A DNA stretch of 64,000 bases from Planctomyces sp. SH-PL62 (GTDB lineage Bacteria > Planctomycetota > Planctomycetia > Isosphaerales > Isosphaeraceae). Where the stretch lies: assembly GCF_001610895.1 (NCBI RefSeq), contig NZ_CP011273.1:1612001-1676000 (forward strand), written 5' to 3'. Shown here in pieces: positions 26,495 through 32,944 of this stretch. Under the pieces are notes generated by a model that saw nothing but the letters and a program-made list of their open reading frames with translations, searched no databases and was not told the DNA's origin. Numbering within the stretch: the first letter of the stretch is position 1; each line of letters starts with the position of its first letter. Position numbers and translations under genes: made by a program.

Positions 26495-26905
26495 TCCGAC
26501 CTCGCCCCCGAGCCGAACACCCGGGCGCGGCCGTCGTTGGAAAACGTCCGCCGCGCGCGGCGTCGTTCCTTACTGGATTGACACCGAGGCCGCTTGCACT
26601 AAAATCTCTTCATCGACCCGCGTCGACGTGACACGTCCTCACTCCTCTTCCAGGATGTCTCCGTCGCCGCCCGACGTCCGGAAGGGCTACCATTCGCCCC
26701 GGTCGCGACGTCCGCACCTGTCCGACGTTGGGCGGTGTCCGGCATCCTCGTCTTCGTGCCGGGAGTCGTCACACGCCATGTCGTCGAGACGTCCGCACGC
26801 GAACGGCTCGAAGCGGTCGTTCGGGGAGAGATCCCCGAAAGTCCTCCGCGGACGCCCCGCGTCTCCGGTCGGGCGACCACCTCGCGCATCCGGAGTCGAC
26901 CTCCC
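26495..26905 (+). other. gene-free region with the DAB operon promoter
   Basis: 411 bases without a confirmed gene. It contains the promoter at 26578-26605 and a leader of about 300 bases. The dabA frame is open through most of this leader (GTG at 26735), but the translated extension is Arg/Ser/Pro-rich and unlike the family, so it is treated as untranslated. Confidence 0.45.
26578..26605 (+). promoter_or_regulatory. promoter of the DAB-type carbon uptake operon
   Basis: Consensus TTGACA (26578-26583), 16-base spacer, TAAAAT (26600-26605). Predicted start of transcription near 26612. Confidence 0.65.
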
Positions 26906-29900
26906 TTGAGCCACTCCCACGTCGAGGCCCCTGACGTCACCACCCGGTCCGAGGGCGAGCCCCCGCTCGAAGCGATCAACGGCTGGATCGAACATGCGGC
27001 CCACTACCTGCCGTCCCAAGGGCCGATCTCGGTCTTCGTCCATCACAACACGCTGCACGCCTTCGAGGACGAGCCGTTCGGCCGCGCGGTCATCCAGGCG
27101 AAGGCGATGTTCGGCAGCGAGCCTTATCTGAGCGAGGAGCATTTCCGCCGCGAGCTGGCGCGAGGCCGTATCCTCCAGGAAGATCTCGCCTGGGCGCTGA
27201 TGGAAGAACTCGGTGACGAGGCCGACCGGCTGATCGGGTTCATGGGGACCCGCTACCATCTGCGACTGGCGATGCTCGAACACCCGCTCCGCCTGGGGAC
27301 CGACGCCGAACTCCGCTGGGTGATCGCCGAGACCGACGCGCTGCACCGTTTCCGCTCGGAGACCCCCCCCGAGGTCCGCCAGCGACTCGTCGACCAGAAC
27401 CGCCGATGGATCATGCGCGAGTACGCCGGCGGGCGCGAGGCGCCGGGCCGATCGGGGCGCGACGTCGTCGACGCGCTCCTCGCATCGCGCGAGTACCGAG
27501 GCTCTCGCGTCGAGCAATGGTCCGCCGCGACGTGGGAGGCCTTCACGCTCACGCTGCTCTGGCGGATCTGCCATCTCGGCGCTCACGGCGTCCGACCGTC
27601 CGGGGCCGTACCGCCGGCTCCGATCCGCCATCGCGACCACGTGCTGGCGGCCTCCGGCTACGACACGGACCTGAGCGTCCATGAAGTCCTGATCCGCTTC
27701 ACCGGGCCCTTCCTGGATCAAGGGTTTGCGGCCTGGGAACTGCCGGGCCGCGACGCCGGATACTTCCGGGCTTTCCTCGACCTCAATCGCGACGCCCGGC
27801 CGATGGCCGAGTGGCTGCGCCCGCTCCCCGCCGAGCTGCGACGGATCGAGGCGGCCGGGCTCTCCCCGCTGGCGTCGATCGCCGAGTCGCTCAGGCTCCT
27901 GGGCGTGTCGGCCGCCGAGGCCCCGAAGTATATCCAGAGCACCTTGCTCGCGCTCCGGGGATGGGCGGGGGTCGTCTGGCAGATGGAGACGAACGCCGAG
28001 TGGGCCGCCCGTCCCGCACCTCCGGGGACGCTGGTCGAGTATCTCGCCGTCCGGCTCATCCTGGAGCGGCTGGCCGTCGGCTGGGCCGCGGAAGATTTCC
28101 TGGGTCGACGCGTCCCCTTGAACGAGATGCGACGGGTCCTCGCCTCCAGCCATCCCAAACCCCCGCGGACGAGCGTGGATCGTCGCGCCTATCTGCTGTT
28201 CCAGCTCGCGCAGGTGCGCGGTTGGGGCCCGATGGAACTGGCGAGGCTGTCCAAGAGCGAGTGGTCTCGGCTGGTGACCGAAATCGAGTCGTTCGACGGC
28301 CTCGAACGACGGCGGGTGTATCAACTCGCTTACGAACGACGGTACCAGGTCCAGGCCCTTCGGGCCCTGCTCGCCCACCATCCGACGCCGCGAGGCGACG
28401 CCGACGGCCCGGCGAGATTCCAGGTGGTCTGCTGCCTCGACGAGCGCGAGGAGTCGCTGCGCCGCCATTTGGAGGAAGTCGAGCCGCGCTGCGAGACCTT
28501 CGGGATGGCCGGATTCTTCGGCGTGGCGATGTACTATCGAGGCGTGGCCGAGGCCCAGTTCCGCCCGCTCTGCCCGGTCAACGTGAAGCCGAAAATCTTC
28601 GTCTGCGAGGAGCCGATCCGCTCGCTCACCGGGGCCAGCCGCTTCCAGCAGTCCCTGCGTCGCGGCCTGGGGAGCCTGGCGTATCGCATCCACATGGGTT
28701 CGCGGACGTTCCTCGGCGGCATCGTCACGGGCCTGCTCGGAGCCTTCGCCGCGGTGCCGCTGCTGACGCGGGTCCTGCTGCCGCGAGAGACGGCGCGGGC
28801 TCGCCGGCTCTTGAACCGGATCGTGACGCCGCAGTTGACCCAGCTCCGGCTGGAGCGAGGTTCGCCCGAGCCGGGGCCCGAGAACGGCCATCTCGGTTAC
28901 AGCGTCGCCGAGATGGCCGACATCGTCGGCGGCGGGCTCCGCGCGATCGGCCTGACCGACCCCGGCCTCTTCTCCCCCCTGATCCTGATCCTGGGCCACG
29001 GCTCGTCGAGCCTGAACAACCCCCAGGGGGCGGCCTACGACTGCGGCGCCTGCGGCGGATCGCGGGGGGGCCGAACGCCCGGGCCTTCGCCCAGATGGCC
29101 AACGACCCGCGAGTGCGGGCGGCCCTGGAAAGGGACGGGACGACGATCCCCGACCACGCCTATTTCGTCGGCGGGTTCCACAACACCTGCGACGACTCGA
29201 TCGGCTGGTTCGAGCTCGACCGGCTCCCGGTCACGCATGAAGACCTTTTCAACGAGGCGTTCGCCGCCCTTGACGTGGCGCGAAAGCGCAACGCGCACGA
29301 GCGCTGCCGGCGGTTCGAGTCGGCGCCGCTGTCGCAGACGTTCGAGGAGGCGATCCGACACGTCGAGGGGAGGGCGGGGGACCTGTCGCAGACCCGCCCC
29401 GAGCTAGGCCACGCGACCAACGCCCTGTGCATCGTCGGCCGGCGCGAACGCACCCGGGGCCTCTTCCTCGACCGCCGCGCCTTCCTGACCTCGTACGACG
29501 CCGCGAGGGACGACGAGGAGGACAACATCCTCGCCGGGCTGCTCCGCGCGGTCTTCCCGGTCTGCGGCGGCATCAACCTCGAATACTACTTCTCCCGGGT
29601 CGACCCGGCCGGCTACGGCTGCGGGACCAAGCTCCCGCACAACATCACCGCGCTGCTGGGCGTCATGGACGGCCCGGCGAGCGACCTCCGGCCCGGCCTA
29701 CCGTGGCAGATGGTCGAACTCCACGAGCCGATCCGAATCCTGATCGTCGTGGAGACGACGCCCGAGCGGCTGGCCCGCGTGCTGGAAGCCGACGCGATGA
29801 TGACCCGAATGGTCCGCAACGGCTGGGTCCACATCGCGACGCTGGACCCGGAACGCGCCGTGGTCCACCTCCACCGCGGCGACGGATTCTCCCGTTACGA

Positions 29901-30048
29901 GGGGCCGACCCACGATCTCCCCCGAGCCGAATCGTCGCTCGACTGGTATCGCGGCTGGCGGGACCATCTGGGTTTCGCCTCGATCGCACCGACCTCGCCG
30001 TCCCCCGCCTCGTCGGCCCCCCACGCGGGGCAGGAGCCCCGATCGTGA
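26906..30048 (+). pseudogene. dabA: dabA (DUF2309) inorganic carbon transporter subunit, split by a frame change at a G7 run
   Basis: DabA/DUF2309 protein, the zinc-containing carbonic-anhydrase-like subunit of the DAB dissolved inorganic carbon accumulation complex. From the TTG at 26906 (GGAG 10 bases upstream) the frame holds all four predicted zinc/active-site residues: C510 and D512 in CCLDERE, H698 in LGHGSSSLNNP, C713 in YDCGACGG. Just after this, at a run of seven G (29064-29070), the family sequence jumps to the -1 frame (GGPNARAFAQMANDPRVR onward) and continues to 30048. Unshifted, the product ends at 29407 (833 residues with about 110 aberrant). With a -1 shift it is about 1047 residues. 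G-GGG-GGC at 29065-29071 is a canonical slippery heptamer, so recoding, mutation or a sequencing error are all possible. The stop overlaps the dabB start. Confidence 0.85.
29064..29071 (+). other. frame-change site: G7 tract forming a -1 slippery heptamer
   Basis: The zero frame reads CGG GGG GGC CGA. Slipping back one base on G-GGG-GGC gives GGG GGG then CCG AAC GCC, which restores the conserved R-G-G-P-N-A-R-A-F of DabA. Homopolymer G runs are also the commonest place for sequencing deletions. Confidence 0.8.
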
Positions 30049-31457
30049 ACGAATGGGTCGCTCGACTTTTCGGGCTGGGGGCCGTCGGCGCCCCCTTGCT
30101 GTTACTGGCGGTCTTTGGCCTGTCGACCTTCTTCACGACGCGGTTGGGCGAGAAGACGATGGCGAGGTGGACGGCCGCCTGCGTCTCCTTCGGCCTCTTC
30201 TCGGTCGTCGGCATGTTGCTGGCGATGCTCTGGACCGGCGACCGCGAGGTGCAGGTGGAGGTCGGCGACTGGGTGGCCCTCCCGTCCGAACACTTCCACT
30301 TCCGCGTGAAATTCCTGTTCGACCGGCTGTCCGTGCCGTTCGCCGCCTTGACGTTCATCCTGGTGGGGGTGACCGGGAGCTTCGCCAACCGTTACCTCCA
30401 CCGAGAGCCGGGCTACCGGCGGTTCTTTTTGTACTTCGCGGTCTTCCTGCTCGGCATGGTGGTGGCCTCGCTGGCGGGGACGATCGAGACGCTGTTCATG
30501 GGCTGGGAGCTGGTCGGGCTCGCCTCGGCGCTGCTGGTGGCGTTCTTCCACGAGCGGGCGGCGCCGGTGTTCAACGCCCAGCGGATCTGGACGGTCTACC
30601 GGTTCTCGGACGCAGCGTTCCTGATCGCGGCGCTGACGCTCCACCGCCTTTCGGGGGGCGGGGACTTCGCCGCCCTGACCGGCTCCGGCCCGTGGCCGGG
30701 ATCGGAGGCGGCGATCGCACCCGCCGCGGCGCTGGGGGTGGGCCTGCTGCTGTTGATCGCGGCCGCCGGGAAGTCGGCCCTGGTCCCGTTCTCGGGCTGG
30801 CTCCCTCGCGCGATGGAGGGGCCGACGCCGTCGAGCGCGGTCTTCTACGGCGCCCTCTCGGTCCACCTCGGGACCTACTTGCTGCTCCGGGTCGATCCGA
30901 TCCTGAAGGCTTCGCCGCCGCTCTGCGCATGCGTCGTCCTGATCGGGGCGGCTTCGGCGGTGTTCGGCGTGGTGGCGGGCCGGGTGCAGACCGACGTCAA
31001 GACGGCCCTGGCGTATGCGTCGCTGACGCAGGTGGGGATCATCACGGCCGAGATCGGCCTGGGCTTCCGCTACCTGGCGCTGGTGCACATCATCGGCCAC
31101 GCGTGCCAGCGGACCCTCCAGTTCCTCCGCTCCCCCTCGCTGCTGCACGATTATCACATGCTGGAAAACGCCCTCGGCGGTCCGATCCCTCGCGCGCCGA
31201 GCTTCACCGAGCGGCGACTGCCGTCCGAGGCGCGGAGGCGGCTCTACCGAGTCGGACTCGAACGAGGGCGGCTTGACGCGGCGCTCGACCGATTCATCGT
31301 CCGTCCCTTCGTCCTCAGCTTCCGCTGGTGCGACCGGATGGAGGCCCGCTGGACGGGCTTCCTCGCCGGGCGACGCGACCGCCCGCACGACCACGACCCC
31401 CGCCGCCGACACGACCCCGTCGCCCTCACGCCGCCGGCCGGAGAGGACCACTCATGA
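30045..31457 (+). CDS. dabB: DabB-like proton antiporter subunit (NuoL/MrpA family)
   Basis: 470 residues, about 13 membrane helices. In DAB complexes this subunit conducts protons or other cations that energise DabA. Family features: [21 protein letters not shown] (helix with the key glutamate), [27 protein letters not shown] with the conserved lysine, and [24 protein letters not shown]. The GTG start overlaps the dabA stop as GTGA, with CAGGAG upstream, so translation is coupled to dabA; this also argues that ribosomes reach the dabA terminus. The last 30 residues are His/Asp/Arg-rich. The stop overlaps the next start as ATGA. Confidence 0.88.
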
Positions 31458-32944
31458 GCTCGATGCGACTCCCGTGGCTGGAGCTGGCGATCCTCCTCCC
31501 CGCGCTCGGTTCGATCTGGGTGAGGTTCCGACGCGACCCGCTGGTCGCCCGCGAGCACGCCCTGGCGATCGGCGGTTTAACGCTGCTCGCCACGATCGCC
31601 GCCTGGGTCGATTTTGAACTCCTGGGGCCCCGAGACGCCCCGGGCTGCCGTCCCTTCCCGGGGTTCGGGCCGAGCTGGGCATGGCTGGCGATCGACGCGC
31701 TCAACGCCCCCCTGATGCCCCTCGGCGCGCTGATCCACCTGCTGACGATCCTGGCCACCCTGCGCACCAAGGTCCGGGAATTCTCGCTCCCGCGCACCCT
31801 GATCACCGAGTCGATCCTGATGGCGATCTTCGCCGCCTCGACCCCCTGGGGACTGGTGGTCCTGATGGCTATCTCGACGCTCCCACGCTACATGGAGCTG
31901 GTCGCGAACCGGCAGCCGAGCCGCGTCTACCTGATCCACATGGCCCTGTTCATCACGCTCATGATCTTGGGCCAGTGGGGAGTGTCGAACGCGGCGGCGG
32001 GCGGGACTCCGCCACATTGGGCGATACTCTTGCTTACCCTGGCGATGCTCGTGCGGTGCGGCGTCGTCCCGTTCCATTGCTGGATGACCGACCTGTTCGA
32101 GCACGCGACGTTCGGCACGGCCCTGCTGTTCGTGACGCCTTTGACGGCGGCGTTCGGCGTGACCCGCCTGGTGTTGCCGATCGCGCCGACGTGGGACCTG
32201 TGGATCATCTCGATGATGTCGCTGATCACGGCCCTCTACGCCGGCGGCATGGCCTTGGTCCAGCGCGACGCGAGGCGGTTCTTCTGCTACGTCTTCCTCA
32301 GTTGCTCCTCGCTCGTCCTGGTGGGGATCGAGACTGCCACGCCGATCGGCCTGACGGGGTCGCTGAGCCTCTGGCTGTCGGTCTCGATCTCGCTGACCGG
32401 CTTCGGGCTGGTCCTCCGCTGCGTCGAGGCGCGGGTGGGGCGGATCGCGCTGACGGAGTTCCTGGGGCTGTACGATGAAATCCCGACGATGGCCGGGCTC
32501 TTCCTGCTGACCGGGCTGGCGAGCGTCGGGTTTCCGGGGACGGCCGGTTTCATCAGCATCGAGATGATCGTCGAGGCCGCCTTCCGGACGATGCCGGTGG
32601 TGGGGCCGCTCATCGTGATCGTCGCGGCCCTCAACGGACTGGCGGTCACCCAGGCGTACTTCCGCATCTTCGCCGGGAAGGCGGAATCCTCGTCGATCGA
32701 CCTGAGGATCCGGCGGCCGGAGCGGATCGCCGTGGTGGTCACGTCGCTCCTGATCCTCGCGGGCGGCCTCTTCCCCCAGTGGGGGGTCAAGAGCCGATAC
32801 GACGCGGCGCTCCAACTGCTCGCGCGGCGGTCGCAAGGCCCGGAGGCCGTCGCCGGGCCCCGACGGAGCCCGGACGACGCGTTGACCGTGCGGACTCAGC
32901 CCTCGCGAGGGGGCGAAGCGGGCTTCGCCCCAGGCTTCAGATAA
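31454..32944 (+). CDS. second antiporter-like subunit of the DAB operon (NuoM/NuoN-like)
   Basis: 496 residues, about 13 to 14 helices, member of the proton-conducting membrane transporter family. [29 protein letters not shown] resembles the V-P-F-H-x-W-L-P-D-A-x-x-x-A-P segment of NuoM/NuoN, and [28 protein letters not shown] is the late-helix family motif. The usual charged residues are partly replaced (for example no lysine before VPFHCW), so its proton path may be altered. ATGA overlap with dabB shows coupling. DAB operons are typically two genes, so a third, antiporter-like gene is noteworthy. Its 3' end overlaps the convergent carbonic anhydrase gene by 49 bases. Confidence 0.82.

Follow-up and report, generated by a model that had tools for sequence, protein, structure and literature searches.

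DabA proteins (PF10070) are the zinc-dependent subunits of DAB inorganic-carbon uptake complexes; in the solved DabA2, zinc is held by Cys351, His524 and Cys539, and an Asp353–Arg355 dyad is present (PMC13144422). Homopolymer indels, in turn, are a known weakness of long-read consensus sequences and a cause of frameshifts (PMC9262707). We analysed a dabA gene in a 64,000-nucleotide stretch of the Planctomyces sp. SH-PL62 genome (the window), where PF10070 is matched over its full length, but with the match spread over two frames.

The frame break in dabA

The zero-frame part of the gene (26735–29071, forward strand) has a putative start, encodes the N-terminal two thirds of the protein with all zinc ligands and matches positions 1–495 of PF10070 (E = 7e-115). 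The C-terminal third (29071–30048, forward strand), comprising 325 codons and a stop in the −1 frame, matches positions 493–747 (E = 8e-104). At the level of open reading frames, positions 1–495 are carried by 26735–29407 and positions 493–747 by 27811–30048, which is read one base back. The two pieces join at 29062–29071, at a run of seven G (29064–29070, forward strand) that is directly followed on its 3′ side by CC and, by comparison with intact relatives, lacks a base. Past the break, the zero-frame continuation in the open reading frame list (29072–29407, forward strand; stop at 29405–29407) is without DabA similarity, with no PF10070 match beyond residue 779. A three-periodic, reference-free coding-phase model, blind to DabA, found the same phase switch, and the frame is clean on both sides of the homopolymer. 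The sequence does contain the frame break; the preliminary description, which had DabA similarity stopping at the run of seven G and resuming one base back, was correct on this point according to both the PF10070 pieces and the phase model.

Motif and spacing comparison with DabA2 places the counterparts of the zinc ligands and of the Asp–Arg dyad 5′ of the break, as had been predicted for the catalytic residues. A C-x-D-x-R motif (28433–28447, forward strand) corresponds to Cys351, Asp353 and Arg355 of H. neapolitanus DabA2, and the His (28997–28999) and Cys (29042–29044) ligands, which together delimit 28997–29044 on the forward strand, have the spacing of 15 seen between His524 and Cys539 (PMC13144422). 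The break falls seven codons past the last zinc ligand, where the zero-frame codons read CGG GGG GGC and the heptamer G-GGG-GGC (29065–29071) is in register. Programmed −1 ribosomal frameshifting at this heptamer would let a single gene give rise to DabA in a short and in a full-length form; in its favour are the register of the heptamer and the match to DabA of the product of a −1 slip, with PF10070 positions 493–747 in the frame one base back. Both of these observations had been made previously and both stand. A second match to the break site in the same genome proved to be a short chance hit in G/C-rich sequence and was rejected as another DabA.

Downstream, the −1 frame remains open for its 325 codons and its stop (30046–30048) overlaps the GTG of dabB at 30045, as originally reported. 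The argument drawn from this arrangement, that a clean downstream frame speaks for translation, is not sufficient taken alone, as the frame would be just as clean in an artefact or after a mutation of very recent date. The GTG belongs to an intact gene for a dabB-like NuoL/Mrp-type membrane subunit (30045–31457, forward strand; PF00361 and PF00662), followed by a second intact Proton_antipo_M membrane protein (31454–32944, forward strand; PF00361). The segment 30045–33783 of the window thus holds two Proton_antipo_M proteins after dabA, together with a beta-type carbonic anhydrase (Pro_CA) that is convergent, on the minus strand.

If the one-base deletion were real and recent, or the tract phase-variable, this strain would be a dabA null, its product consisting of the N-terminal two thirds of DabA with all zinc ligands and a short out-of-frame tail, without the C-terminal third. 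Homopolymer runs of seven G are mutable, the frame break is clear and a PF10070 search of the genome found no second DabA gene, all of which favour such a reading; the RuBisCO large subunit was not detected in the genus, so that loss of dabA might be tolerated. It is opposed by the occurrence of the same one-base losses in plsY and the homoserine dehydrogenase gene of this assembly (see below) and by the absence of any other lesion from dabA and the two downstream membrane genes. We consider a genuine null or phase-variable allele unlikely, although it ranks second among the explanations.

The break site in relatives

DabA was found in 42 of the 59 genomes searched, this one included, and none of the other 41 DabA-bearing genomes had a break at the same point, some of their copies being fragments at contig ends. 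At the site, the five same-genus copies read CAG GGC GGA, CAG GGG GGG, AAC GGC GGC, CGC GGC GGG and CGC GGC GGC, all in a single frame, with the slippery heptamer missing or out of register in every case (5 of 5). One copy has a seven-G tract, but placed so that the gene is read through without a shift. A long run at the site is not kept in most relatives, which argues against a real null or a phase-variable tract. Since the same-genus sites differ and are all single-frame, the heptamer is not a kept feature; comparison of dabA from relatives at the site, which the preliminary description had put forward as a check on recoding, returned an uninterrupted frame and went against it.

The fold energy of the RNA 3′ of the site did not stand out from that of shuffles (z = −0.46 and −0.63, in a model without pseudoknots). 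With no relative needing or keeping an in-register site or the two-frame arrangement, nothing unusual in the downstream RNA structure, and losses in unrelated genes of the assembly that point to a simpler, assembly-wide cause, programmed −1 frameshifting at G-GGG-GGC is very unlikely, and the earlier suggestion that slippage makes two forms of DabA is not upheld.

The claim that one more G would restore the frame was right in part. The tract is one base short relative to relatives, but the sequence does not show that the missing base was a G: in the same-genus genome G004 the frame is intact with CAG followed directly by GGGGGG. Parsimony could not decide the identity of the lost base, as upstream of the break the same-genus copies share only about 61–76% identity, and the site itself varies among them.

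The zero-frame part of dabA is 75.6% identical to the closest same-genus copy. The −1 frame part is 80.4, 79.1 and 77.8% identical to its three closest counterparts in the genus, among which this C-terminal part is about 79–81% identical. The downstream dabA frame is not decaying, and its conservation matches that of intact relatives, which argues against an old null; such conservation is equally compatible with recoding, with an assembly error and with a mutation of very recent date.

One-base losses in other genes of the assembly

The strongest evidence comes from the assembly itself, and two of its losses are particularly informative. The only copy of the lipid-synthesis gene plsY in this genome (PF02660), on C1 at about 5237975 (L170:17976), is split at a run of six C into pieces matching positions 1–66 and 68–164; a single intact copy is present in each of the five sister genomes. 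plsB was not detected in any of the six same-genus genomes, and PlsY is therefore the only glycerol-3-phosphate acyltransferase of a known type found in the genus. A glycerol-3-phosphate acyltransferase is necessary for the cell, and a plsY null should be inviable; this assembly therefore very probably contains under-called homopolymers. The only homoserine dehydrogenase (PF00742), a single-copy gene in all six genomes that is intact in relatives, is likewise cut from its ACT domain at a run of seven C (C1, about 3502702; L184:2703).

Further frame losses affect an ABC ATPase, which is separated from its TOBE domain at a run of seven C (L154:18602), a zinc dehydrogenase (C6 run; L125:7891), a cyclic-nucleotide-binding protein (C9 run; L121:16903), a PepX_C protein (C6 run; L182:19693) and a GDSL lipase (L124:14110), the last near G/C-rich sequence and not clearly placed on a run of at least six; in some of these cases Pfam matches one piece only and the other piece was recognized by inspection. 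Scanning by homology to the sister genomes revealed losses in an NAD-epimerase (C6 run; L132:14440) and a phosphoribosyltransferase (G6 run; L171:9042). About ten one-base-loss cases were recognized in 1.26 Mb, using scans of limited sensitivity.

Transcriptional slippage at G/C runs could restore the frame in part of the mRNA of dabA and the other interrupted genes, and the clean downstream sequence of several interrupted frames, including those of plsY and homoserine dehydrogenase, is in keeping with it. However, six or seven G or C are short for efficient transcriptional slippage, the GDSL frame loss has no clear run of that length, and plsY and homoserine dehydrogenase are single-frame in sister species; we regard the idea as highly improbable. 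There is also very little likelihood that the consensus is correct and that RNA polymerase or ribosome slippage rescues real one-base losses at G/C runs, in plsY and dabA among others. Should the consensus prove right, it would be remarkable for a high-GC bacterium to rescue its housekeeping genes by slippage.

The coding-phase scan covered 1.26 Mb of this genome and 1.2 Mb from three same-genus genomes. The phase model called seven frameshift-like switches in the 1.26 Mb, compared with none in 0.40 Mb of G002 and two in 0.80 Mb of G001 and G003, neither of which lies in a recognizable gene and which we find unconvincing. With its stop filter, the model detected 6 of 30 simulated deletions, and these rates are lower bounds. 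A plain run-by-run phase test without the stop filter was overwhelmed by gene boundaries and was abandoned. Among G/C runs of at least six, 12 of 615 were flagged here and 4 of 366 in the controls, an excess per run that is not significant. By inspection, two of the four control flags mark one and the same gene junction and the other two a repeat and a transposase-like open reading frame, and those in this genome include well-conserved genes; the contrast between this genome and the controls thus rests on which genes are affected, not on the raw flag rate. At flagged runs of at least five in this genome, one base was lost at all 20 positions and gained at none, some of the positions being neighbouring runs of one site and the independent events correspondingly fewer.

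By homology, two real cases were found in 228 kb of covered coding sequence here, but also one, the kinase frameshift of G002, in 115 kb of that genome, and none in 157 kb of G001 and G003; with the phase check, three sites were left here, of which one is apparently ribosomal DNA in a wrong frame. A reciprocal homology scan without the phase check was overwhelmed by intergenic and wrong-frame alignments and was set aside. The G002 case (L151:3850) is a protein-kinase-like gene that also changes frame, near AAGGGGCC. Homopolymer-length spectra compared with those of the sister genomes showed no general shortage of long runs here, and the per-run error rate is therefore low.

A probable consensus error and comparison with known systems

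The tract type and direction of the dabA break are the same as those of the other losses in the assembly, and for this reason we infer that dabA is one of its homopolymer errors. In our assessment the break is most likely a homopolymer deletion in the consensus that arose in sequencing or assembly. One base would have been dropped at the G-rich homopolymer while the genome was sequenced or assembled, and the living cell would carry an ordinary, uninterrupted dabA, its product working with DabB in inorganic-carbon uptake. The assembly, 6.8 Mb in five contigs, would be consistent with long-read data. Points against a consensus error are the absence of a general shortage of long runs, the non-significant excess of flags per run and the frameshift found in G002. 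Among the alternatives listed in the preliminary description, homopolymer error is the best supported, with null or phase-variable mutation behind it, and recoding is not supported. Breaks at G/C runs in this assembly, such as those in dabA, plsY and the homoserine dehydrogenase gene, should not be taken as biology without the reads.

With systems of programmed −1 frameshifting at X-XXY-YYZ, dabA shares an in-register heptamer and the conservation of what a −1 slip would produce, but it differs from them in an unconserved site, in the lack of any unusual downstream structure and in relatives that are single-frame. The likeness to long-read bacterial assemblies with homopolymer indels (PMC9262707), drawn here from the consensus sequence, extends to one-base losses at runs of G or C that are spread across unrelated genes and have clean flanking frames, although the rate here is low. 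From the DabA of known DAB systems, the dabA studied here differs by a one-base frame split, seen in this assembly only; in common with those systems it has both halves of PF10070, the C-x-D-x-R motif, the His and Cys ligands and an adjoining dabB-like gene of the NuoL/Mrp type.
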